From Pseudanabaena sp. FACHB-2040 (GTDB lineage Bacteria; Cyanobacteriota; Cyanobacteriia; Phormidesmidales; Phormidesmidaceae), in NCBI RefSeq assembly GCF_014696715.1, contig NZ_JACJQO010000002.1, forward strand, positions 186,001-250,000: 64,000 nucleotides of DNA, given 5' to 3'. This document shows, one piece after another, positions 38,103 through 51,955 of the stretch; position 1 is the first letter of the stretch; each line of letters opens with the position of its first letter. Made by a program: the position numbers and the translations under genes. The notes below the pieces were generated by a model, which did no database searches, was not told where the DNA came from, and saw nothing but the letters and a program-made list of their open reading frames with translations.

Positions 38103-38508
38103 ACCCTGTCTGACACTAGCTCGACACCTTTTCGGGCTCTTGCTAAAACGCCTTCCTTTGAGCACAAAACCATTCTCTGCCGCTGCTGCAGTATCCTCGT
38201 CCCACGGAAGAGAGAAGCCTCTGTAACGAACCTCAGTACGAGCAAAGAATTTACACACAATTCATTTTGAGCAGCAGCAAACATTGTGCTGTTACAGTTT
38301 GTTCTTTCCCCAGCCAGACGAGTAACGGGAAGATCGAACGAATAATAATGATATTCCTGACTCAAGCAGAGGTTTCTGGAGTTGGGCTGTTAAAGGGGTT
38401 TTCCAATTGTTAAGAAAATCCGGTCACTCCCTACTTTCCGAGTGCATCTGCTACAGGTAGCTAGTGAAGGGCGACACATGGCTTGAAATCGCGTTCAATG
38501 CCAAACTT

Positions 38509-38537
38509 AAAATCCCGGTTTTACTGGGATTTTTTTT
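38509..38537 (+). terminator. Plus-strand hairpin with T run
   Basis: AAATCCC at 38510-38516 pairs with GGGATTT at 38526-38532, then more T. The reverse direction is weaker but could also serve the leftward crtX transcript, so it may be bidirectional. Confidence 0.7.
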
Positions 38538-38675
38538 ATTCCTATAATTTTTTTAATTCCTATAAACATACTCAGGCTAAGCCTAGACTCAATCTCTATG
38601 CCAGTTCTCCTAAATAAGTAGCCCCAATCAAACACGTCCGCAGCGACTATGTCTGGCTAACTACTCAAAAAAGGA

Positions 38676-39962
38676 CTAGACTTCGACCATTGCTGGAGAT
38701 AGAATCGGCCGCCTTGATTGGACTGCCTGCTCCACAATATCTGCAGCTCGCCGCACTCCGCCTGCTTGAGCAATAGCCTGCTGCATCTTCTGAGCATTTT
38801 TCCGGTAAGATTCGTCTGAAAACACTCGCTGCACCGCTGCTTTCAGATTCTCTACCTGCACCTCGGCAATTGGAATAACCTCTCCTACTCCGGTCCAACG
38901 AATGCGGGCCCCCGTCCCTGGCTGCTCAAAAGTAATCGGCATCGCTACCATTGGCACACCCGCACTCAAAGAATCTAAAACCGTATTGAGTCCGCCATGC
39001 GTAATAGTCAGGCTAGCCCGCTGAATCACCTCGACTTGGGGAGCATAGTCTACCACCAGCGGCGAACCGGGTAAATCCAGCATGTCGTCAGCCTTGATCC
39101 CGTGGCCTAGGGTAATTACCAACTGGGCATCGAGCCCCTCGCAAGCGCGGGCAATGGTGTGATACACATCCTGCTTAGTGTTTTGAATGCTGCCAAGAGA
39201 AGCGTAGATCAACGGCTGTCCGGTAAGTCGCTCAAACGGAAAGGGTACCGACTGCGGCCAGGGATGGCGGAACGGCCCTACGTAGTGCAGGTGACTGGGC
39301 CGCTGGTCTAGAGGAAACTCAAAGGCGGCAGGCTGTTGACTAATCCAGGCTAAGCGAGCATTTGAGCAATAAATGTGGCGATAGGGAGGCATCTGCCGCT
39401 GCTGGCGGTAGCGGTTGATTTCCTGCAAGATAGGTTTGCAGCTACGGTCTAGCACATAGTAAGCAGCCTGATTACGCAGCCGCGCCCAAACCTTATTTTG
39501 GTAGGGCCAAAGGGTAAAAAAGGGCGGTACATCAGCTCGACGATGAATTGCTTGGCCACAGCTCACCGTGACAAAAGGCAGATTCAGCGATTCACCAATT
39601 GTCTCGCCGACCGGCTCTAGTTGGTCGGTAATTAATGCTTCAATACCTTCACTTTTAATGGCAGCGGGAGCATCTTGGCAGATGATCTCGGCCATGTGGC
39701 GACAAAATTCAACCGAATACTGCAGCGATTCTCGCCCGCTCAGTTGGGCCAGCTGCTGAAACATCTCAGCCAGCGAGCCAGGCTTATACAGAGACTGACC
39801 AATCGCCCGAAAATCTAGCTCGGCAGAGTGTACCTTGTCTGCTAAATCAGGTAGCTGCAAAACGGTTACCCGGTGCCCGCGCGATCGCAACTCCCGCCCC
39901 AGAGAGAACTGAGGATTTAAATGACCAGAATAGGGCGGGCAAATGATGCCAAAGTGAGTCAT
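38676..39962 (-). CDS. crtX: Zeaxanthin glucosyltransferase-like GT1 enzyme
   Basis: The 428-residue GT-B fold protein opens FGIICPPYSGHLNPQFSL, includes LITDQLEPVGETIGE near residue 110 and ends THGGLNTVLDSLSAGVPM, AMPITFEQPGTGARI, and AGGVRRAADIVEQAV, a segment-by-segment match to CrtX of carotenoid clusters. The His/Gly UDP-sugar binding motif is HGGLNTVLD. It probably transfers glucose (UDP-glucose) to a hydroxylated carotenoid end group at the membrane. It starts 23 bp after crtW on the same strand, so the pair is an operon making carotenoid glycosides. Confidence 0.88.
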   Translation of the reverse strand: MTHFGIICPPYSGHLNPQFSLGRELRSRGHRVTVLQLPDLADKVHSAELDFRAIGQSLYKPGSLAEMFQQLAQLSGRESLQYSVEFCRHMAEIICQDAPAAIKSEGIEALITDQLEPVGETIGESLNLPFVTVSCGQAIHRRADVPPFFTLWPYQNKVWARLRNQAAYYVLDRSCKPILQEINRYRQQRQMPPYRHIYCSNARLAWISQQPAAFEFPLDQRPSHLHYVGPFRHPWPQSVPFPFERLTGQPLIYASLGSIQNTKQDVYHTIARACEGLDAQLVITLGHGIKADDMLDLPGSPLVVDYAPQVEVIQRASLTITHGGLNTVLDSLSAGVPMVAMPITFEQPGTGARIRWTGVGEVIPIAEVQVENLKAAVQRVFSDESYRKNAQKMQQAIAQAGGVRRAADIVEQAVQSRRPILSPAMVEV

Positions 39963-39985
39963 AAAGCACCCGGGAACTGAAGTCT

Positions 39986-40858
39986 TTAACAGCTAGGTAG
40001 AGTCTGAGGAGTCTGAGAAGTCTGAGATGAGGTTAACGAGGATGGCTTTTGAACTGTAGAGTCTGACCCAAAATAGATACCCTGTCGATAAACGGTAGGT
40101 AAGTACCACCAAGGGATGTGCGGGTGCTCGTGGTGCTCCTCATGAAAGCCAAAGTGGTAGCAGGCAAGGAAGGACAGCCACGTTGGCAGCGGATAAGTTT
40201 TAGCGCGATGGCGGTTACTGTAGCCTCCATTGGGCTCTCGGTGCGGCAGAAAAGTGCCAAAGAAAAAGAGCTGAAGCGAGCTCAAAAATGAAGGCAGAAT
40301 CCAGAATAGGAACATATTCCTTTCAGGAATTCCCAGCGCCCAATGGATTAGATAGTAGACCGAGATTAGAACAACAATTTGCTTCAGGCTCGTATAGCCC
40401 TTCATAAAATGGAGATACCAAAAGACTGGGTTTTTGTGGCGGCCATCATGAAAGTCTGGGTCGCCCGCTTGAGCAGGATGGCGGTGGTGTTGCCAGTGTT
40501 TCTGCAGCAGCTTTTTATAGGAAAAGAGGGCATAAACAGAAACGGCAAATGCACCAATAAAGTGATTCACTTTAAGGTTGCGGGAGAATACCGAGCCGTG
40601 CATCGCATCATGGGCCGTAATGAAGAGTCCCGTGTAGATAAATGCTTGCCACAAAATGGCTGGCACAAGCTGCCAGAAGGGAACTTCAGCTATGGGTATT
40701 GAGAGTAAAACTGTAAGACTAACTGCCCAGATCGAGAGAATAGCTAAAGCGCTGAGCAAGCCGTAGGTCGCAGCTTTGCCTTTGTTTTCCGAAAGAGTTG
40801 AAATGTCAAAGGTGGGTAGCAGGTTATTGTGTCCAATCAACTTAGGTTTTCCTTTCAA
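39986..40858 (-). CDS. crtW: Beta-carotene ketolase
   Basis: A 290-residue integral di-iron enzyme with three His-box clusters: TAHDAMH, KHWQHHRHP and FHEEHHEHP, plus membrane helices at the front and in the middle. This is the CrtW family that introduces 4-keto groups into beta-ionone rings (canthaxanthin/astaxanthin type). The only available start is TTG 40858; homology to CrtW N-termini covers the protein from about residue 20, so the start is uncertain. It leads the crtW-crtX operon. Confidence 0.94.
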   Translation of the reverse strand: MKGKPKLIGHNNLLPTFDISTLSENKGKAATYGLLSALAILSIWAVSLTVLLSIPIAEVPFWQLVPAILWQAFIYTGLFITAHDAMHGSVFSRNLKVNHFIGAFAVSVYALFSYKKLLQKHWQHHRHPAQAGDPDFHDGRHKNPVFWYLHFMKGYTSLKQIVVLISVYYLIHWALGIPERNMFLFWILPSFLSSLQLFFFGTFLPHREPNGGYSNRHRAKTYPLPTWLSFLACYHFGFHEEHHEHPHIPWWYLPTVYRQGIYFGSDSTVQKPSSLTSSQTSQTPQTLPSC

Positions 40859-41428
40859 GAGGAGGTGAGGGTTAATTCATCTCTGCTCTCTCTCCTATAT
40901 TTAAAGCCTCTATATCAGGGCTTATATCAGAAAGAAGAGAAGGAAGAGATGCTGGCTCTTATAAAGCTTAAGGGTGTTTCCTTTAGCTGTTAGTGTGTAT
41001 GTCGCGTGTAAGTGTTTGAAAAATGCTCGGAATTAATCGAGCTATATGCGTCTTTTTGATTGGAGCTTTTAATAGCCTGATGTTCAGAATAATAGCTAGT
41101 ATTTTCTACTCACTTCTGTAAAAGGATAGAGATAGCGACAAGCAAAAACGTTGAGCTAGCTTTTTATTGTTGATAGGGGAAAACAATAAACCAAAGCTAT
41201 TTCTGCTTCAAAACTGTCTGAAAACAGCGCCTGAGGAGTAGCTTGAGCTACAAAAGTTGTTTATGAAGATGTATCTCTAAAGAAAGAAGGGAACAATTTT
41301 TCTAATCGTTAGGGTTAGAGGATAAAAACAATTTCTGGGATGGCTTAACTACACTAAGCCTATCTCTGAATCTGGGCTAAGTCAGACTTGCTCTCATTTT
41401 TCATCCGATCTTCTGTCTAAGGGTAGAA
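40859..41428. other. Divergent intergenic region between crtW and ndhK
   Basis: About 570 bp AT-rich, no gene. It carries the inverted repeat at 41163-41190 and the promoters of two carotenoid-associated transcripts reading away from each other. A small repeat of CTATATCAG/CTTATATCAG lies near 40909-40930. Confidence 0.5.
41163..41190. promoter_or_regulatory. 9-bp inverted repeat upstream of ndhK
   Basis: TTTATTGTT (41163-41171) and AACAATAAA (41182-41190) are perfect reverse complements separated by 10 bp, in the divergent promoter region; an operator is plausible but unproven. Confidence 0.4.
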
Positions 41429-42169
41429 ATGAATTCAAATTCCCATCCTGCTTTTGACTTGGGGAGCGGCGAACGTATCTCTGCTCCCGCTAGCTATCCC
41501 GAGGTAACAAATCAGCTGTCAGAAAACGTTATTCTGACTAGCCTCGACGATCTCTATGATTGGGCACGGTTGTCTAGCTTGTGGCCAATGCTCTACGGCA
41601 CAGCCTGTTGCTTTATTGAATTTGCGGCTCTGATCGGCAGCCGATTTGATTTTGATCGGTTTGGTCTGCTGCCCCGGTCTAGCCCCCGTCAAGCTGACCT
41701 AATCATTTTGGCGGGCACTCTGAATATGAAAATGTCGGCAGCTACTCGCCGCCTCTACGACCAGATGCCTGAGCCCAAATACGTGATTGCAATGGGGGCC
41801 TGCATGATTTCGGGAGGTATGTTTAGCGCTGACTCTCCTACCGCAATTCGCGGGGCAGATAAAATTCTGCCGATTGATGTATATATTCCCGGCTGTCCGC
41901 CCCGACCCGAAGCCATTATTGACGCCATTATCAAGCTGCGTAAAAAGATGTCGAATGAGGCATTTCAGGAGCGTGACCCGAGCGGGCCTACCCATCGCTT
42001 CTATTCTATTCCCCATAAGCTCAGGTCGGTTCCCCAAATTCACACGGGCGAGTATTTGCAGTCTCCATTCCGGCAGCAGCCCCCAGCAGCTCTAGCGGCA
42101 GAGAAAGGAATTCCTCTGCCGGAACTGCTGAAGGAAATGGAGCCCAGCCCCACTGCAGAGAGCTGGTAG
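41429..42169 (+). CDS. ndhK: NDH-1 subunit K, single copy apart from ndhC/ndhJ
   Basis: The 246-residue protein carries the four ligands of cluster N2: Cys60-Cys61 (TACCF), Cys125 (MGACMISGG) and Cys156 (PGCPPRPE), so it can bind a [4Fe-4S] centre. The segment [21 protein letters not shown] is characteristic of NdhK in NDH-1. The usual cyanobacterial order is ndhC-ndhK-ndhJ; neither neighbour is present here and the N-terminal sequence and the residues around GACMISGG differ from the usual GACTITGG. It reads directly into crtO with a 7-bp gap. Confidence 0.93.
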
Positions 42170-42176
42170 GTTAGCA

Positions 42177-43838
42177 ATGAACTACGACGTAATTTTGATT
42201 GGAGCGGGCCACAACGCTCTGGTGTGTGCTGCTTATCTTTTGAAAGCCGGTTACTCGGTGCTGTTGCTGGAGAAGAATGCTGTACCCGGAGGCGGGGCCA
42301 CTACGTTAGAGGTGATGCCAGAGGCTGCACCGGGATTTTTCTTTAACCCCTGTGCGATCGACCACGTGTTTATTCATCTGGGGCCGGTGGTGCAAGAGCT
42401 AGAGCTACACAAGTACGGGCTGGAGTATCTGTACTGTGACCCACTGATTTTCTCCCCCCATCCCGACGGCAAGTATTTCTACGCCCATAAGTCTGTGGAG
42501 CAGACCTGCCAAGAAATTGCCCGCTTTAGCCCCCGAGATGCGGAGAAGTACCGGCAATATGATGACTTTTGGCAGCGCATGATCTCTGCGCTCGTACCCG
42601 TATTCAATGCGCCACCCAAGTCCATTATTGACATTGCCCTCAACTACAACCTGACTCAGATCAAGGACTTGCTTTCTCTAATCGGAGGCGACAAGAAAAC
42701 CCTGGATCTGGTTCGGACGCTCTTTACCAGCGCCCAAGACTTGCTGGAAGAATACTTCGATGCAGAGTTTCTGCGGGCACCCCTGGCCCGGCTGTCTTCA
42801 GAGCTGAGCGTACCACCCTCGCAAAAGACCAGCGCCATTGGCGCGCTGATGATGTCTATGCGCCACAACCCCGGTGTGGCTCGACCCAAGGGCGGCTCCG
42901 GGGCGCTGACAGAGGCTCTACTGAAGTTGGTGACGCACCTGGGCGGCCAAGTGTTGACCGAGCAGCCAGTCGAGAAAATCCTGGTAGATGATGGTCGGGC
43001 TGTTGGCGTACGGGTGGCTGGGGGCCGGGAGTACCGGGCCAGCAAGGCAGTGATCTCTAGCCTCGACGCCAAGCGGGTGTTTCTGGAGCTGTTGAGCCCA
43101 GCTGAAGTGGATGGGGCCGACCCAGAACTGCGCGATCGCATGCAGCGCCGTGTCACTAGCCACAATAATGCCATTCTCAAAATCGACTGTGCCCTTTCAG
43201 AGCTGCCCCGCTTTGAGCACCACCAACACCGCGACGAGTACTGGACTGGAGCCGTCTTGATTGCCGACTCGGTTGATCACGTTGAGCTGGCTCACACCGA
43301 TCCCAATATTGGCCGCATTCCCGATGGTGATCCCTCAATGTATGCGGTTATTCCCTCTTTCCTCGATCCGTCCCTAGCACCACCTGGACTGCATACGCTA
43401 TGGATTGAGTTCTTTGCCCCCTATGCGATCAAAGGGGCCGAGGGCACAGGCCTCAAGGGCACAGGCTGGACAGAGGAAACCAAGGAAAAAGTGGCTGACC
43501 GCGTGATCGACAAGCTAGCCAGCTATGCTCCGAACCTGAAGCAGGCGATCATTGCCCGCCGGGTTGAAAGTCCGGCCGAAATTGGCCAGCGCCTAGGCGT
43601 GGAGAAGGGTAACTACTACCACTTCGACATGACCTTTGACATGATGATGCCGTTTCGCCCGTTGCCAGAGCTAGCCAACTACGAGACCCCAATTAAAAAC
43701 CTGTTGCTCACTGGAGCGGGCACTCACCCTGGCGGCTCGATTTCGGGTATACCAGGACGCAATTGCGCCCACGTTTTCCTACAGCAACAGAATCCGCTCT
43801 CAGCGCTAACACAGCGGCTTACGAGCCTGGTTAAGTAG
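42177..43838 (+). CDS. crtO: Carotene ketolase of the CrtO (phytoene desaturase-like) family
   Basis: The 553-residue FAD enzyme starts with the dinucleotide-binding GAGHNALVCAAYLLKAG and LLEKNAVPGGGATT, and ends with GAGTHPGGSISGIPGRNC. The length and these blocks match the CrtO of cyanobacteria that adds a 4-keto group to beta-carotene to give echinenone. It is not homologous to CrtW, so two unrelated ketolases exist in one 5-kb locus. It follows ndhK by 7 bp and is probably on the same message. Confidence 0.92.
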   Translation: MNYDVILIGAGHNALVCAAYLLKAGYSVLLLEKNAVPGGGATTLEVMPEAAPGFFFNPCAIDHVFIHLGPVVQELELHKYGLEYLYCDPLIFSPHPDGKYFYAHKSVEQTCQEIARFSPRDAEKYRQYDDFWQRMISALVPVFNAPPKSIIDIALNYNLTQIKDLLSLIGGDKKTLDLVRTLFTSAQDLLEEYFDAEFLRAPLARLSSELSVPPSQKTSAIGALMMSMRHNPGVARPKGGSGALTEALLKLVTHLGGQVLTEQPVEKILVDDGRAVGVRVAGGREYRASKAVISSLDAKRVFLELLSPAEVDGADPELRDRMQRRVTSHNNAILKIDCALSELPRFEHHQHRDEYWTGAVLIADSVDHVELAHTDPNIGRIPDGDPSMYAVIPSFLDPSLAPPGLHTLWIEFFAPYAIKGAEGTGLKGTGWTEETKEKVADRVIDKLASYAPNLKQAIIARRVESPAEIGQRLGVEKGNYYHFDMTFDMMMPFRPLPELANYETPIKNLLLTGAGTHPGGSISGIPGRNCAHVFLQQQNPLSALTQRLTSLVK

Positions 43839-43981
43839 ACCTAAGCTCCCCGATGGAGACGGCTATGCTTTGATCGATCATCTTAAGCTTGGGCATCTAA
43901 ATACCTGCGATCGCAGTATCAGCCCTAGCCAAAACCAGAGGACCGAGAAAAGACGCTGACCGCCGATTTTACGCATCCTTA

Positions 43982-44018
43982 GCCTCGCGCTTCCTTACAA
44001 GAGCGCAGGGCTTTTTCT
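43982..44018 (+). terminator. Hairpin-plus-T terminator after crtO
   Basis: GCC-TC-GCGCT stem with AGCGC-AG-GGC around a 10-nt loop, followed by CTTTTTC. It is 144 bp after the crtO stop. Confidence 0.65.
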
Positions 44019-44855
44019 TTGGGCAGAGAGCAACATCTACTCCCCAAACATAGGCTTACCTTTGTAGAGGTTGAGGACAGTTCCAGGCTCTACGCTTCAG
44101 CTGCCGTCTACTCAAAGTTGTGGACTCAATCCCTCTGCTAGTCTCCTGAGAGAGCGTTTGCGATGAGCTGGAAAACTGATTTTCTAGCGGTCTACGCCAA
44201 GGTATGAGTCCTGAAACTGTGCAGTCAACCTATCCAAAGAATACAGAATTCATTAATAGCCATTGTTATAAAGCTTGTGGCAACGCCTTAAAAAGCTTAT
44301 CCAGACTAGGGTTTCGACAAGTTGGACCTATCCTAGGTTTTCAAAAAACACTGTAGACATTAGTTATATTAGCTGCCTTTATATGTGGCGATAGTTACAG
44401 TATTTAATGAACTTTAAAGTAGCTGTAAGCAAGGCTACTTTTTAAGCCTTTTTGTCTAAAATTAGCTGCTTTTTTAAGTGATAGAATCCGCTGAAAACGT
44501 TTATCAGCAGGGAAGTTCAGGCCTCTCTTCAATTAATATATCTCTCGAATTTTCTCCACAAAGTCTAAAAAACAACACAGTTATCCCCTACTAAAGAGTG
44601 ATTAAAATCTACAGCTTACGAGAGAAAAAACATCTTTGCTTACACACTAGAGTTAGATAACAAGGAGTTCTATAGAGCCCTTTAACCACTTGCCATATCA
44701 GGCATTTGATTAAGGGGTCTGAGTGAGAAAGCTTCTCACTCTTTCTGGAGACGTCCTGACTCTCTATAAATTTCAAACTGTTTAATAAGCATATAGATGC
44801 TCTATTAATTTAACGCTTAGCAATAACTAAACCTAATAGACACAAGGTTGCTTCT
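44019..44855. other. AT-rich intergenic region
   Basis: About 840 bp with no gene seen. It includes a perfect hairpin AAAGTAGC(44416-44423)/GCTACTTT(44434-44441) with a short T run, possibly a terminator for an unmapped transcript, and the promoter of the downstream operon. Confidence 0.5.
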
Positions 44856-45113
44856 ATGACTGGACAAATGTGTTGGTTGAATGAGCAGGGCGCAAACTCT
44901 CACAAAATTCTACATCTGCGTTTAAAGCCGAGTGATCCTTGGCGTCCTTACACGGCCTGTCGCCAGTTTGCAGTACCCGACCACAACATTCCCAGAGGCT
45001 CTAAAGGGTGGGCAACTTATCAGAAGCTTTTTAAGGCTGGCTGGGCTTTAGTACCATCGGCTGAAGCACATCAAACCCCGGCTCTAGTGGGTGCATTAGC
45101 AGGTGGTCGTTAG
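44856..45113 (+). CDS. Conserved-looking small protein of unknown function (85 aa)
   Basis: The product has a WLNEQGANSHKILHLRLKPS front and RGSKGWATYQKLFKAGWALVP in the middle. I cannot assign a family. It is the first of three tightly spaced genes (12-bp and 7-bp gaps) ending with hflX, so it shares a transcript with it. Not membrane bound. Confidence 0.7.
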   Translation: MTGQMCWLNEQGANSHKILHLRLKPSDPWRPYTACRQFAVPDHNIPRGSKGWATYQKLFKAGWALVPSAEAHQTPALVGALAGGR

Positions 45114-45125
45114 GAGATAGCCAAT

Positions 45126-45368
45126 ATGAAAACACTTTCGTCTTCATCAACTTTTCTCGCTCGCTACTGCACAAATCCCAAATTCAAGCAAAATCAGCAG
45201 GTCAGTTTTGTAGGAGGCACTGGCAGAATCAAAACCTATCTACCCGACTCTGGAAAATGGACCTACGAAATTGAAATGGAGCTAGGACCAGAACCCGAAA
45301 TCGGCAGAGTTGGACCAGAGACCACAATTTTGCTTTACGAAGCAGACATCCAGAGTGTCTTAGACTAG
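45126..45368 (+). CDS. Small beta-rich protein of unknown function (80 aa)
   Basis: Residues after 24 (QQVSFVGGTGRIKTYLPDSG, then WTYEIEMELG) look like a small beta-barrel (SH3-like) without recognised family. The AGGAG at about 45113 gives a good ribosome site before ATG 45126. Middle gene of the operon ending with hflX, 7 bp upstream of hflX. Confidence 0.7.
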   Translation: MKTLSSSSTFLARYCTNPKFKQNQQVSFVGGTGRIKTYLPDSGKWTYEIEMELGPEPEIGRVGPETTILLYEADIQSVLD

Positions 45369-45375
45369 ACCTTTT

Positions 45376-47055
45376 ATGGCAAGTGTTTCCGGCAATGTTC
45401 AGGGCTTGAAAAATAGCCAGATCAAGCAGCTACAGCAGCTTTACCAAGAACGGCTGACCAGTGATGGAGTGGTGTCTTTGAAGCTAGCCCATAATCTGGG
45501 CAAACTCAGTAAGGCTATGCATCGACCGCTGTGTTGCTATCTAGACCGGCGGGGACAGGTAGTAGAGGTGGCCGTGGGGACACCTGAGCAAACCCAGCTA
45601 TCACCGGAGGCACTGCCCCGTCGTAGCACCGAGCGATTAAGCGGCATTCGCTGTATTGCAGTGCAGTCCCACGCCCCTGACCAGGCTGCTCTAGTTGCCA
45701 TGCTGCGACAGCGGCTGGATGCACTGGTCGTACTGGTTCCAGCTGCCGATGGAGCTGCCGACCCGATTGAGGTTGCTTACCTAGCTCACGTGGTGCCTGA
45801 TATCGAGCAGCCTTGGGCCGTCTCGTCCCCGTTATCGCTGGACGACCTAACAGTAGAAGACTTCAACGATCTGCTGCATGAGTGGGAGAGCGAACTGCGT
45901 GAGTCAGGCTTTAGCAGCGATCAGTTTCAGTATGTGCAGGCCGACCATGACCGGGTGCTGCTGGTGGGTCTGATGACAGACGATCTATCTTCCCATCAGT
46001 TTCAGGACGGGCTAGAAGAACTGACCCGGCTGGTAGAAAGCGCTAGAGGCGAGGTAGTGGGAACAGTGGTGCAGAAGCGATCGCAACCCCACCCCCAAAC
46101 CGTCATCGGTCAGGGCAAGGTCAGCGAAGTGGGGCTTCAAGCCCAAACGCTAGGAGCCAACCTGATCGTCTTTGACCGTGACCTAACAGCTACCCAAATT
46201 CGTAACTTAGAGCAAACTTTGGGTGAGCGGGTGGTCGATCGCACTGCCGTTATCCTCGACATCTTTGCCCAGCGGGCTCAGTCTCAGGCAGGCAAACTGC
46301 AGGTCGAGCTGGCCCAGCTAGAGTACCTGCTGCCTCGGCTACGGGGCCGAGGACAGTCGTTATCGCGCTTAGGCGGCGGCATTGGCACACGAGGCCCCGG
46401 TGAAACCAAGCTAGAAACCGAGCGACGCACCATTCAACGGCGGATCGATCAGCTGCAGCAAGAGGTCAACCAGCTCCAGGCCCACCGTGCTCGCCTGCGT
46501 CAGCAGCGGGAGCAGCAGGAAATTCCAGTCGTGGCTCTAGTTGGCTACACCAATGCAGGCAAGTCCACCCTGCTCAATACCTTGACCCAGGCCGAAGTCT
46601 ATACCGCCGATCAGCTCTTTGCCACCCTCGACCCGACCACCCGACGGCTCACCTTAACCCAAACCGACCCAGAGGCAGGAACTCAGGAACGCCACGATAT
46701 CTTGCTCACCGATACCGTAGGTTTCATCCATCACCTGCCGCCTGCGCTGATAGATGCCTTTCGCGCCACCCTAGAAGAGGTGACCCAGGCTACTGCCCTG
46801 CTGCACGTGGTAGACCTCTCACACCCCGCCTGGCAGAGCCATATCGAATCTGTCGAAGAGGTCTTACAGTCTCTGCCAGCAATGTCTGGGCCAATTCTAC
46901 TAGTGTTCAACAAAATTGATCAGGTGAACTCAGAGCAGTTAGCCACTGCTCAGCAAACCTATCCCGATGCAGTCTTCATCTCTGCGACCCAGCGCTTGGG
47001 CCTAGAGACCTTGCGACAGCGGCTGCAGCTTGACCAGCCAACTGCAGTAGCCTGA
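45376..47055 (+). CDS. hflX: Ribosome-associated GTPase HflX
   Basis: The 559-residue protein has an N-terminal extension of about 140 residues over bacterial HflX, then the HflX domain with GTVVQKRSQPHPQTVIGQGK and DRTAVILDIFAQRAQS, the Gly-rich GRGQSLSRLGGGIGTRGPGE, and a GTPase domain: P-loop GYTNAGKST, switch DTVGFIHHLP and NKID for guanine. It splits stalled or hibernating ribosomes in other bacteria. Last gene of a three-gene operon. Confidence 0.95.
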   Translation: MASVSGNVQGLKNSQIKQLQQLYQERLTSDGVVSLKLAHNLGKLSKAMHRPLCCYLDRRGQVVEVAVGTPEQTQLSPEALPRRSTERLSGIRCIAVQSHAPDQAALVAMLRQRLDALVVLVPAADGAADPIEVAYLAHVVPDIEQPWAVSSPLSLDDLTVEDFNDLLHEWESELRESGFSSDQFQYVQADHDRVLLVGLMTDDLSSHQFQDGLEELTRLVESARGEVVGTVVQKRSQPHPQTVIGQGKVSEVGLQAQTLGANLIVFDRDLTATQIRNLEQTLGERVVDRTAVILDIFAQRAQSQAGKLQVELAQLEYLLPRLRGRGQSLSRLGGGIGTRGPGETKLETERRTIQRRIDQLQQEVNQLQAHRARLRQQREQQEIPVVALVGYTNAGKSTLLNTLTQAEVYTADQLFATLDPTTRRLTLTQTDPEAGTQERHDILLTDTVGFIHHLPPALIDAFRATLEEVTQATALLHVVDLSHPAWQSHIESVEEVLQSLPAMSGPILLVFNKIDQVNSEQLATAQQTYPDAVFISATQRLGLETLRQRLQLDQPTAVA

Positions 47056-47192: not shown

Positions 47193-48380
47193 TTAACTAT
47201 CTAACAAGACAAGATGAGATTTATCATCTAACAGCACGCTGCCCTCCTGCTGTAGCTTCCCCAGCAACCGAGTAATCGTGACGCGAGTAGTGCAGCAGGC
47301 ACTGGCCAAGTCTTCGTGAGTGAGGCGGATACTCAGCCGAATGCCCTGATCAACCGCTTCTCCCACCTCCACCTTCAAAAATTCCAGCATCTGGCGCAGT
47401 CTTTTCTCAGCGTTAGGCTCGCCTGAAATAGCTAGCAGCAGTTCGGTCTGCTGCAGGCGGTGAGCCGTTCCCACAAACAGATGATGAGTCAGTTCTGGAG
47501 CAATCAGTAGTTCATCTAGGTCGATAAAGGCTACCTGCACATCAGAAAGCGCCATTACCTCATGCAGCGGTAGCGCCGTTAGCAGCCTGCCAAAGGGGGT
47601 GCCTGGCCCCATCAGCCCCAGCAACACCTCTTTATTGTGGTCGGTTAAGGTCGTGAGCTTGACCAAGCCCTCACTGACATAGCCCAAAGATTGCGGCTGC
47701 AGCGGAATGATCTCGCCGCGACTAAAGGACTGCAGCGGGCGATCTTTCAGCAACAGTTCTGCTGGGCTAGAGGCCGTCTCTTGCTTGTTAGATTGCCACC
47801 GCTGCAGGCGCTTGCGGTGAGTGATATCCCGCAGTGCCCACTGAAAACCCACGGGCTGACCTGTGCGATCGCGAATGGCCACAGTTGAGCAAGCCGCCAC
47901 CGTGACGTTAGCGTTGCGAGAAGCTAGGCCCAGTTCCCACTCTTGGTAGTAGTCGCGCTCCTGCCGCCGCATCAGCTCTGTCCAGAATTTGGGGCGATCC
48001 GCCGCATCAACATAGACTACCAAAGGCTTTTTAGCCAAATACTCCGGCGGTACTCCCAGCAACTGTGAGGCCATCAGGTTAGCCTCCAAAACTTCACCTT
48101 TGAGGTTAGTCACAAGGTAAGCCTGAGGTGCAAATCGAAATAGGTGTTCGTACCGCCCCCGCTCAACATTAGCCGTTTCCACCGCGTAGGCTAAAGAATC
48201 GTTTTGCTGCTGTAGCTCCTCCACCGCAACCTGCAGCTCTTCCACAGCAATCCCCAACTCCTTAAACGCAGCAGCAGTGACCTCCGGGTCAGCACAGGAA
48301 AAAGACTCATCTCCGTTCAACATGAGATTGAGCCGTTGAGTCAGAGAAGAAACTTGCTCAGAAAAGCGATCAATATTCAT
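47193..48380 (-). CDS. PAS-domain Crp/Fnr-family transcription regulator
   Basis: The 395-residue protein (ATG 48380; the longer frame starts with TTG) combines a leading coiled coil (residues 1-70), a PAS domain (about 73-185, FRFAPQAYLVTNLKGEVLEAN and IRDRTGQPVGFQWALRDIT), a Crp-like cyclic-nucleotide-type beta-roll (about 215-310) and a C-terminal Crp HTH with RLTHEDLASACCTTRVTITRLLGKL. PAS fused to Crp is not a common combination. The same coiled-coil/PAS block begins the histidine kinase at 49432, with which it shares the divergent intergenic region. The beta-roll lacks the canonical cAMP phosphate-binding pattern, so the ligand is open. Confidence 0.88.
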   Translation of the reverse strand: MNIDRFSEQVSSLTQRLNLMLNGDESFSCADPEVTAAAFKELGIAVEELQVAVEELQQQNDSLAYAVETANVERGRYEHLFRFAPQAYLVTNLKGEVLEANLMASQLLGVPPEYLAKKPLVVYVDAADRPKFWTELMRRQERDYYQEWELGLASRNANVTVAACSTVAIRDRTGQPVGFQWALRDITHRKRLQRWQSNKQETASSPAELLLKDRPLQSFSRGEIIPLQPQSLGYVSEGLVKLTTLTDHNKEVLLGLMGPGTPFGRLLTALPLHEVMALSDVQVAFIDLDELLIAPELTHHLFVGTAHRLQQTELLLAISGEPNAEKRLRQMLEFLKVEVGEAVDQGIRLSIRLTHEDLASACCTTRVTITRLLGKLQQEGSVLLDDKSHLVLLDS

Positions 48381-49431
48381 CAAACTATACTGGAGACTCC
48401 ATTTGAGGCATCTACCAGCCGCAGACAAAATCGAGCAGCGACAGCCAGGATACCTACAATTTTTTCATTATTTAGCGGTTACTTAAATCATACCGACAGA
48501 TTTATTCACATTCCTCCCTCATTGGAGCCAATCTCCATTTACAAGTGTCAATAAACACACCATCGGGGCGTTTACTGAGAACTACTAAGATATCGCTAGA
48601 GGTTTTTGAGCTGCATTATTTCCCTCTTCACTAAGCCAAGTTTCTATTGGATTAACAGATAATCTCTATCGACCATTAACTGCCCAAAAGCACCCTTTGA
48701 TTTAGCTTTTTCGACTTCTCCTATGGTTTCAATAGAAGAAAATTTTACAACCCACTTTCTATCTCATTCTCAAGATAGATGCCTACTGCCAAAATAGCTG
48801 ATTTTAGTTGAATAGTGCAGCCGTCTCTGCAAGAGCAAGGGTATAGATTCTGCGAAAAACCGTCAAATATTCGGAATTTGCCTAGAAGTAAGGCCTAAAG
48901 CCCTAAACAGGTTTTCAGTCAATTACTCCATTTAGAAGATATTTTAGAAGCAGAAAAACCTGTTTAATGTTTCCCGCTCCTGTCACAAGGCTGAATAAGA
49001 AGAAAGTTTAATTTATCTTTTGGACAAAACCTGAGGAATACTTTTATAAAATAATTGAGTTATCTAACGCTTCTGCCCACTCTATTCAGCCGAAGTGAAA
49101 CCTGCCAAAAGAGATAAGAAAATGTTGATTTTTTTCAAATTTCCTCTTCAAAATACCTTCTTGAAGATTTCGGGTTTATGTTTTTAATCATCCTGAAATC
49201 TATGACTTAAGATCACCCGTTAGGATATTTTTATTCGAGGAGAGATATATCATAATACTTTTCAATTCGGAAAAAAGTTCTACTTCAACAGTTCGATCGG
49301 TCAAATTTAAGTAAACCCATCTTTAAATTTCCCCATTAGGTTGAGGTTGCTGGGCTAGGCTATTTGCTAAGATCATCGCCCCAAAGATAGAAATTTACAA
49401 TTAATTAAAAAAGGAGTTTGAAAATCGCTTT
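48381..49431. other. AT-rich divergent intergenic region
   Basis: About 1.05 kb with no gene supported. It is notably AT-rich compared with the flanking genes and separates two proteins with homologous sensory front ends. The right end has AAAAAAGGAG about 20 bp before the kinase ATG, a somewhat distant ribosome site. Confidence 0.5.
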
Positions 49432-50793
49432 ATGACTGGGGAAAATCGTCTACAGACTCAAAACGGGGGTGCCTTCACCCACTATATGGAGACGGTGCAT
49501 CAGCGGACCGAAACGCTTTACCAGAGTGCTAAAGACGTGCCCTGGGAGCAGCCCCAGCTGATTCTTGACTCCTTAGAAGAACTGCGCCTAGCCCTAGAAG
49601 AACTGCATGTGGCTGAAGAAGAGCTGCACCTCCAAAACGAGCAGCTGATCTCCACTCAAGAGGCATTAGAAGCAGAGCAGCGCCGCTATAAAGATCTTTT
49701 TGAATTTGCCCCCGATGCCTACCTGATCACTGATATCTATGGAGCAATTCAAGAGGCTAACACAGCGGCAGTGTCTCTGCTGTACTTAAAACAGCCGCTG
49801 CTAATCGGCAAGCCACTGGTGATTTTTCTGCCAGAGGAGCAGCGGGCCTCTTTTCGTACGGTGTTAAATCATCTGCCTACCATTCATCGAGTACAGGAGT
49901 GGGAACTAACGCTGTGCAAACGCAATGGTGCTACCTTTGAGGCAGCTTTAACGGTCGAAACGATTCGCAACAACATCGGTTCGGTAACGGGTTTGCGGTG
50001 GCTCATGCGCGATATCACCCTCCGTAAGCAGGGCGAAATGCAGCTGCGAGAGGCACGGGTCCAAAACTTGCGGCTGATCGAGGCTGACCGCCTAAAAAAC
50101 CAGTTTTTGGCGACTATTTCCCACGAGCTTCGCACGCCTCTCAGCGCCATGCTGGGCTTCGCCCACCTACTACTGCGGCGACTCTCCAATCATCCTGATG
50201 CTGAGGTCGCTCATATGCTTGAGCGGATCTACTGCAACGGTAAGCATTTACTGAGCCTAATCGAAGAAATGCTTGATTTCTCCCGGCTGAAGGCCAAGGG
50301 CCTAGAACTGCACCCCGAAACCTTTGATCTAGTTGATCTGGTGATGATCACTGTGGAGGAACTGCGCCCCCTAGCTGTACAGAAATCTCTTGCTCTGGAC
50401 CTGAAAACTCATCCGCTTACCCTAACTGTCAAAAACGACCGCCTGAGACTGCGGCAGATCATTGTCAATCTGGTGTCTAACGCCATCAAGTTCACAGACA
50501 AGGGCAGCATTGTACTGGAGCTTTGGGAACTGCCAGAGGGGCGGGTAGCCCTGCTAGTACGCGACACTGGTATTGGCATTGCGCCCGAGGAGCAGGACCA
50601 AATTTTCCAGGAATTTTGGCAGGTCAACCAGACTAACAACCGGCAGCACGGCGGCACGGGACTGGGGCTGGCAATTGTGCGGGCTCTGGTGCAGACAATG
50701 GAGGGCACCATTTCGGTATCAAGCCGGTTGGGGGAAGGCACTACCTTTCGAGTTGAGCTTCCTCGCCAAATTTGCAGCTCTGCTCAAAAGTAG
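49432..50793 (+). CDS. PAS-domain sensor histidine kinase
   Basis: The 453-residue cytoplasmic kinase starts with a coiled coil (LEELRLALEELHVAEEEL) and a PAS domain (FEFAPDAYLITDIYGAIQEAN to IRNNIGSVTGLRWLMRDIT), then HisKA with His231 (TISHELRTPLSAMLGF), N box, G1 (RDTGIGIAPEE) and G2 (HGGTGLGLAIV). The coiled coil and PAS align with the PAS-Crp regulator on the opposite strand (for example FAPxAYLxT). It is followed 91 bp later by a CheB gene. Confidence 0.92.
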   Translation: MTGENRLQTQNGGAFTHYMETVHQRTETLYQSAKDVPWEQPQLILDSLEELRLALEELHVAEEELHLQNEQLISTQEALEAEQRRYKDLFEFAPDAYLITDIYGAIQEANTAAVSLLYLKQPLLIGKPLVIFLPEEQRASFRTVLNHLPTIHRVQEWELTLCKRNGATFEAALTVETIRNNIGSVTGLRWLMRDITLRKQGEMQLREARVQNLRLIEADRLKNQFLATISHELRTPLSAMLGFAHLLLRRLSNHPDAEVAHMLERIYCNGKHLLSLIEEMLDFSRLKAKGLELHPETFDLVDLVMITVEELRPLAVQKSLALDLKTHPLTLTVKNDRLRLRQIIVNLVSNAIKFTDKGSIVLELWELPEGRVALLVRDTGIGIAPEEQDQIFQEFWQVNQTNNRQHGGTGLGLAIVRALVQTMEGTISVSSRLGEGTTFRVELPRQICSSAQK

Positions 50794-50884: not shown

Positions 50885-51955
50885 ATGCCCCATCGCAATA
50901 TTGTTGTTATCGGGGCGTCTGCAGGGGGCGTAGAAACGTCTAAAGAATTGGTTAGCTATCTGCCGCCTGACCTGGCAGCGTCTTTGTTTGTAGCGATGCA
51001 CTTCCCGGCTAACAGCGTCAGCATTTTACCCAGCATCCTTAATCGCTGTGGCACTTTGCCTGCTCTTCATCCTGAAGATGGAACGGCGATTGAGCCAGGG
51101 CGTATTTACGTTGCCCCACCCAACTATCATATGGAGCTGCGTCGGAGAACCTCAGTCAGTGGGGACCAAGATGCTAGCGGTTACATTGTGCTCGACCAAG
51201 GGCCTCGTGAGAATGGCTATCGACCAGCCATTGACTTTTTGTTTCGCTCAGCAGCACGGACTTACCATCAGCGAGTTATTGGCGTTATTTTGTCGGGCAT
51301 GTTGGACGACGGCACAGCTGGGCTCATGCAAATTAAGGCCAGAGGCGGGGTGGTGCTGGTACAAGACCCTCAAGAGGCGCTGTTTTCTGGCATGCCCAAT
51401 AGCGCCATTGCCAATGTTAAGGCAGATGCCGTACTCCCTATCGCGAAGCTAGCGGCCCACCTCGTCGAAATCATCCATGAGACCGTGCCGGAGGAGGTTT
51501 GGGTGGCAAACGAATTGAACAACGAAAGAGAACGAGAACGGGTAGCTCAGGAAAAAAGTGCGGCAGAACAGGGAGAGCGGCCCGACTCGGCCTCTCCGTT
51601 CACCTGCCCAGAATGTGGCGGGGTGCTCTGGGAACTGCGCGATCGCAACCTGCTGCGCTTTCGCTGCCATGTCGGCCATGTCTACTCCCCCGACAGTATG
51701 CTTTCAGAGCAGGCCAATGACCTAGAGCGGGCCCTTTGGTCAGGCGTGCGAGCCCTAGAAGAAAGAGCAGCCCTGGCCCGCCGCATGGCCAATCATGCCC
51801 ACGAGCAGAAGCGTTGGATCTCCGAAGCTCATTTTTTAGAGCGCGCCGAGGAAACAGCGTACCACGCCCAGCAACTACGCCAGGTGATTGCTCAACAGAC
51901 TAACGGCAAGCCGAACAAGCCCGGCGATCTAGACGATCTGCTTGAGGAAGCTTAG
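50885..51955 (+). CDS. cheB: CheB-type protein-glutamate methylesterase without receiver domain
   Basis: Residues 1-190 form a CheB methylesterase domain with Ser12 (GASAGG), His39 (MHFP) and Asp142 (MLDDGTAG) as the catalytic residues; there is no N-terminal receiver, so phosphorylation control is absent. A C-terminal extension contains a zinc ribbon (FTCPECGGVLWELRDR and RCHVGHVYSP) and a helical tail with LERALWSGVRALEERAALARRM. No CheR or chemoreceptor gene is nearby, so the target is probably not a standard chemoreceptor. Confidence 0.9.
   Translation: MPHRNIVVIGASAGGVETSKELVSYLPPDLAASLFVAMHFPANSVSILPSILNRCGTLPALHPEDGTAIEPGRIYVAPPNYHMELRRRTSVSGDQDASGYIVLDQGPRENGYRPAIDFLFRSAARTYHQRVIGVILSGMLDDGTAGLMQIKARGGVVLVQDPQEALFSGMPNSAIANVKADAVLPIAKLAAHLVEIIHETVPEEVWVANELNNERERERVAQEKSAAEQGERPDSASPFTCPECGGVLWELRDRNLLRFRCHVGHVYSPDSMLSEQANDLERALWSGVRALEERAALARRMANHAHEQKRWISEAHFLERAEETAYHAQQLRQVIAQQTNGKPNKPGDLDDLLEEA

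Follow-up and report, generated by a model that had tools for sequence, protein, structure and literature searches.

A second NdhK beside carotenoid ketolase genes in a cyanobacterium: a conserved paralog that probably serves an alternative NDH-1 electron arm

We analyzed a 64-kb stretch of the genome of Pseudanabaena sp. FACHB-2040 (the window) and found that it carries, beside two predicted carotenoid ketolase genes, an extra copy of ndhK, here called ndhK2 (Table 1). It looks like a long-established paralog encoding the N2 subunit and probably serves in an alternative electron arm of NDH-1, made under stress together with ketocarotenoids. An earlier note on this DNA had raised the idea of a second, specialized form of NDH-1. 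Comparative genomics supports that idea through a clade of such copies (K2) and through the extra ndhI and ndhH genes linked to it in relatives.

Table 1. Features of the ndhK2 region, in window coordinates
Feature	Coordinates	Strand	Basis or remark
UDP-glycosyltransferase gene, downstream of crtW	38676..39962	-	profile search
crtW, diiron-type beta-carotene ketolase (predicted)	39986..40858	-	NF045690, 367 bits (cut-off 350); divergent from ndhK2
Intergenic region, 570 bp, between divergent crtW and ndhK2	40859..41428	.	longest ORF touching the region, 54 aa
ndhK2, extra NdhK (N2 [4Fe-4S] subunit of NDH-1), K2 clade	41429..42169	+	ORF, profiles, tree, cysteines
crtO, FAD-type beta-carotene ketolase (predicted)	42177..43838	+	NCBIfam NF045689; 7 bp 3' of ndhK2
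PAS-Crp regulator, putative link to ndhK2	47193..48428	-	same family as ndhK2-adjacent genes in L069, L161, and L162

The window NdhK2 has 246 amino acids and an ATG start. It passed the cut-offs of NCBIfam TIGR01957 (213 bits; cut-off, 142.7), Pfam PF01058 (92.7; cut-off, 27), and NF005012 (235.7; cut-off, 116), and it matched NdhK of cyanobacterial NDH-1 (PDB 6hum_K, a sequence common to nine PDB entries) over residues 17 to 236 with an E value of 5.7e-102. Family profile and homology to a solved NdhK together place it in NdhK/NuoB, the PSST subunit of complex I. The earlier note had read four N2 cysteines in the protein, and this was confirmed: Cys60, Cys61, Cys125, and Cys156 are its sole cysteines, so that all four N2 ligands of NdhK/NuoB are present, and the four columns are invariant across 65 aligned cyanobacterial NdhK rows. 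The reported absence of ndhC and ndhJ also held, since tblastn searches (E up to 0.01) with NdhC and NdhJ of the same genome, and with NdhH and NdhI of relatives, found no match in the window. A tRNA scan of the window found none.

The housekeeping operon, ndhC-ndhK-ndhJ, lies on another contig of the same genome (G000; 6.28 Mb, 44 contigs), at about position 1,232,000 of C5, with the second NdhK at C5:1232073. This housekeeping protein (NdhK1) is about 70% identical to the window NdhK2, which, unlike it, is encoded outside ndhC-K-J. Since a second ndhK exists in ndhC-K-J, the window gene is not the housekeeping copy, and the concern in the earlier note that it might be the only one does not apply. 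Two NdhH copies, two CrtO copies, and one NdhI were found in G000, along with two PsaB copies by match identity, one beside a PsaA-like ORF and one without. Neither ndhI nor ndhH is linked to ndhK2 in this genome.

The search for extra NdhK copies covered 63 genomes from the family and 388 from the class. Among the matches listed, the copies closest to the window ndhK2 occur in several families, and their alignment revealed a common signature, RGADKxLPxDVY and GACM, which was defined on a subset of the rows used to test it. In an NdhK tree of 70 rows, 39 K2 rows, all of them cyanobacterial, formed one group (SH-aLRT, 98); the window protein carries the signature and belongs to this clade. The tree used 17 of the 37 NdhK1 rows and a row from eight of the nine K3-type loci, and it omitted L159, a fragment of 115 amino acids; another K2 copy, in L168, has a shorter frame. 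A K2 DNA pattern matched 41 of 81 loci, all classed as K2, and 0 ndhC-K-J loci, a result that is circular for those loci. Over genome contigs, it matched 41 stretches, 36 of which are cyanobacterial. The non-cyanobacterial matches (L086, L102, L107, L115, and L122) are other NuoB-like proteins and entered the NdhK tree solely as the outgroup.

At positions 94, 106, 126, and 143, all 39 K2 rows differ from all 17 NdhK1 rows, and the NdhK1 state recurs in nine further rows (eight K3-type rows and Synechocystis slr8031). Position 147 is Leu in 38 K2 rows and Met in one, compared with Ile in all NdhK1 rows. In contrast to NdhK of the 6hum_K type, K2 has Leu94, Thr106, Met126, Ala143, and Leu147; position 126 directly follows the ligand Cys125. 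Pairwise dN/dS was 0.04 to 0.13 in eight K2 pairs, indicating purifying selection, and a ninth pair, the window ndhK2 and L061, was saturated at synonymous sites. Because of the fixed differences and the purifying selection, K2 looks like an old and functional paralog and not a decaying duplicate. Among the matches listed from the open-licence literature, no paper on the K2 clade was found, and four passages of an NDH-1 review (PMC9283085) make no mention of extra NdhK, NdhI, or NdhH copies.

The K2 neighborhoods comprised 40 loci from 39 genomes (the window, L060 to L079, and L154 to L172), 21 of them with 9 kb or more of flank on each side. Extra ndhI lies near K2 in 9 loci and ndhH in 8, so that 12 loci have one or the other and 28 have neither. 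The ketolase gene crtW is found in 7 loci and crtO in 3, a glycosyltransferase gene resembling that of the window in 4, psaB in 4, an HLIP gene in 8, and a DUF4383 gene in 7. The NdhI, NdhH, and PsaB examples passed their respective NCBIfam equivalog cut-offs, and the HLIP label reflects one protein barely over the Pfam cut-off (22.6 versus 22.3) and tblastn for the others, with no NCBIfam match. Neighbor order and gene sets vary widely among K2 genomes, and about half of the neighborhoods carry genes of photoprotection or alternative photosynthesis (ketolases, HLIPs, a PsaB paralog, and extra NDH-1 subunits). An HLIP-crtW arrangement is divergent from ndhK2 in L067, L073, and L075; crtO lies upstream of ndhK2 in L070 and L171; crtW, a glycosyltransferase gene, psaB, and ndhK2 share one strand in L170; and L064 has a ketolase gene as well as ndhI or ndhH. 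A psaB paralog lies 5' of ndhK2 on the same strand in L071 (10814 to 13042, 333 bp away) and in L170 (9431 to 11662, 200 bp away). Two further K2 loci available as 8-kb stretches, L100 and L120, are outside the 40 and gave no ketolase, NdhI, NdhH, or PsaB match.

In 9 of 40 K2 loci, a ketolase gene (crtW in some, crtO in others) is no more than 10 kb away, compared with 1 of 30 NdhK1-type loci (Fisher P = 0.023), counts that are not independent because K2 loci are related by descent; L067, L073, and L075, for instance, represent one arrangement in one K2 subclade. The only NdhK1-type locus with a ketolase gene, at 9.6 kb, was that of G397, one of 33 matched genomes. These 30 control loci are the NdhK matches that remained after 34 K2 and 7 K3-type matches were removed, and they were tallied by hand from match tables, as were the copy numbers of NdhI, NdhH, and PsaB. 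With K2 loci restricted to the 33 matched genomes, the linkage was 6 of 34 versus 1 of 30 (P = 0.074). By density, 0.25 ketolase genes were expected in the K2 flanks and 10 were observed; the expectation is based on 42 CrtW and 50 CrtO matches in 33 genomes and an assumed 7.2 Mb per genome.

In the window, the gap between ndhK2 and crtO spans 42170 to 42176, the 7 bp given by the earlier note, and the two genes, which lie on the same strand, are likely cotranscribed. CrtO passed the NCBIfam equivalog NF045689 narrowly (1002.5 bits; cut-off, 1000; margin, 2.5), and a second CrtO of the genome, at C6:212405-214033, is 66% identical to it. The exact ndhK2-crtO pair was found only in the window genome (0 of the 39 other K2 loci have crtO directly 3' of ndhK2), and what other genomes keep is a ketolase gene in the vicinity, as counted above. 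The divergent crtW and glycosyltransferase genes had gone unmentioned in the earlier note. By context only, the latter would encode a carotenoid glycosyltransferase; crtW and a related glycosyltransferase gene are also near ndhK2 in L067, L072, and L170. A sigma-70-type promoter scan of 38500 to 45400 gave four matches, versus a shuffle mean of 7.0, and none inside the 570-bp intergenic region.

Partner subunits were compared between K2 genomes and controls. At least two NdhI copies were found in 10 of 39 K2 genomes and in 3 of 41 controls (P = 0.026); about 1 kb separates an extra NdhI gene from psaB in controls G143 and G162, which is not the case in control G181. The NdhI tree places the K2-linked proteins, along with that psaB-linked NdhI, on the same side (support, 93), and their branches are long. 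At least two NdhH copies were found in 15 of 39 K2 genomes and 9 of 41 controls, a difference that is not significant (P = 0.086). The contrast reached 12 of 39, including one genome scored from a partial gene, versus 3 of 41 (P = 0.007) only after matches of 76% identity or less were dropped, a cut that removes a third NdhH group and was chosen after the data had been seen. Class-wide and without this cut, 7 K2 genomes out of at least 23 have two or more NdhH copies, as do 33 of 365 others (P = 0.005). The third group (G394:C35:47484, G032:C7:555072, and others; 72 to 76% identical to the query) occurs in K2 and control genomes and supplies the only NdhH found in G140. Extra PsaB, counted from matches of at least 78% identity with two genomes on partial genes, was found in 22 of 39 K2 genomes and 16 of 41 controls and did not differ significantly (P = 0.09).

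The K2-linked NdhH proteins split into two groups in a careful tree, and support for one of these groups is weak. A quick tree had joined the second NdhH of G000, on C7, to the K2-linked type (support, 90). The careful tree, to which five rows had been added, overturned this: the protein falls beside the G213 copy that is paired with AraC (98/94) and, weakly, beside an extra G234 copy (79/93). The K2-linked types of ndhI and ndhH were not found in G000, where one NdhI was detected and the second NdhH lies outside the K2-linked groups. In G402, where ndhK2 is on another contig, 1.9 kb separates an ndhI-ndhH pair from crtO. The NdhI of this pair shares 90% identity with the K2-linked NdhI of L160, and the NdhH belongs to the second K2-linked group. 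The counterpart stretch of G403 contains neither this pair nor the subsequent 521-aa ORF. Two crtO genes lie 5 to 10 kb apart in L221 and L222, from syntenic genomes, and an ndhI-ndhH pair is present in only one of them.

In NDH-1, electrons pass from ferredoxin through N6a and N6b in NdhI to N2 in NdhK and on to plastoquinone, whose cavity involves NdhH and NdhK (PMC6616624, PMC7021789). The subunits found with K2, NdhI and NdhH, are those of this ferredoxin-to-plastoquinone wire. We infer that NdhK2 assembles into NDH-1, has altered redox properties, and is expressed under stress. It would most likely substitute for NdhK1 in a subset of complexes, and in several relatives it may come with its own NdhI (N6a/N6b) and NdhH (quinone site), the three forming an alternative ferredoxin-to-plastoquinone arm on an ordinary membrane arm. 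In G000, NdhK2 would pair with the single NdhI found and with one of the two NdhH proteins, and N2 may be altered by the substitution next to Cys125. With genes for photoprotection or for alternative photosynthesis in about half of the K2 neighborhoods, light or oxidative stress is the probable condition in which the variant complex is made, alongside ketocarotenoids. Against such an arm count the 28 of 40 loci without nearby ndhI or ndhH, the one NdhI found in G000 and its second NdhH outside the K2-linked groups, the nonsignificant PsaB and raw NdhH contrasts, and the weaker ketolase linkage in the matched genomes. A more far-reaching version is tentative and on balance doubtful: a stress-specific NDH-1 of various cyanobacteria in which an NdhI2-NdhK2-NdhH2 wire with a retuned N2 is exchanged as a unit and which is coregulated with ketocarotenoid synthesis and an alternative photosystem I core, resetting cyclic electron flow and the quinone redox state whenever photoprotective pigments are made.

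The closeness of ndhK2 to crtO had led to the speculation in the earlier note that the subunit has an electron role for the ketolase reaction. As a direct electron-transfer partner of CrtO outside NDH-1, NdhK2 would account for the 7-bp, probably bicistronic arrangement, but crtO is directly 3' of ndhK2 in 1 of 40 loci and crtW is a commoner K2 neighbor (7 loci versus 3). Synechocystis CrtO, moreover, is reported to pass hydride to an oxidized quinone (PMC11306087), so it would need an acceptor and not a donor, and the electrons of NdhK go to plastoquinone. We regard this role as highly improbable. NDH-1 and CrtO both reduce quinone and may share a pool; their tie would be shared regulation and at most that plastoquinone pool, with no direct electron transfer. 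Just as little credence attaches to identity with slr8031 on pSYSG, listed as NdhK2 of Synechocystis (PMC7058544). Both are solitary second copies of ndhK, but slr8031 is 62% identical to the window protein, carries GVDKLIPVDVY, the signature of the NdhK1 type, and clusters with L216, a copy of the CCFME type (support, 98), on another branch outside K2. The CCFME-type extra copies (L208 to L216 and L082), a set to which slr8031 belongs, occur as a third copy in several K2 genomes.

NdhK2 might instead be a spare, housekeeping-like copy with no special function, its loci being accessory regions that collect paralogs and stress genes. The 28 loci lacking linked ndhI or ndhH and the varied neighbor sets fit this, as does L065 (from G023, an assembly identical to G408), where ndhK2 follows an alpha-amylase gene and has no NDH-1, photosystem I, ketolase, or HLIP neighbors. 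The K2 residues fixed in 39 of 39 rows, purifying selection, and a ketolase linkage above both the density expectation and the NdhK1 control argue otherwise, and we consider a spare copy unlikely. Somewhat less likely still is that common stress regulation alone explains the proximity of ndhK2 to ketolase genes and that the variant NDH-1 serves low oxygen or a PsaB paralog. This would suit the 200 to 333 bp between psaB and ndhK2 in L170 and L071, the extra ndhI about 0.8 kb from psaB in L217, and the proposal that PsaB2 of Nostoc punctiforme favors anaerobic conditions (PMC4582080); however, 9 of 40 loci have a ketolase gene close to K2 and only 4 of 40 have psaB there, and the adjoining PsaB need not be PsaB2.

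An alternative electron arm containing NdhK2 would resemble NDH-1L and NDH-1MS in that variants of the complex would arise through exchange of paralogous subunits. Described cyanobacterial variants differ in NdhD/NdhF modules, some of them made under stress (PMC7021789), whereas the K2 case duplicates redox subunits of the peripheral arm and points to redox-arm variants. NdhK2 parallels PsaB2 of N. punctiforme (PMC4582080), each being a duplicate of a core redox subunit that is altered close to its cofactors, and a PsaB paralog is linked to ndhK2 in four loci. PsaB2, however, is a photosystem I subunit and not one of NDH-1. K2 and the linked NdhI and NdhH paralogs would offer concrete genes for the adjustment of cyclic electron flow under light, UV, and drying stress and may tie that adjustment to ketocarotenoid synthesis. 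For the K2 strain Chlorogloeopsis fritschii PCC 6912, a published transcriptome of carotenoid genes under UV-B reports a rise of one crtW (log2 4.06), and its main text does not mention ndh (PMC7029182).

Several arrangements were observed beside these genes. In L217 (5020 to 8643), from a genome with one detected NdhK, the extra ndhI is next to a divergent psaB without psaA. A gene for an AraC-type regulator lies directly 5' of the extra ndhH of G000 and G213 (L204:6338-8620 and L231:7036-9266). In the window, the PAS-Crp regulator gene adjoins genes for a PAS histidine kinase (49432 to 50793, + strand) and a CheB methylesterase (50885 to 51955, + strand); the gene for a relative of this regulator follows ndhK2 by 24 bp in L069, and in L161 and L162 such a gene precedes ndhK2 by about 240 bp.
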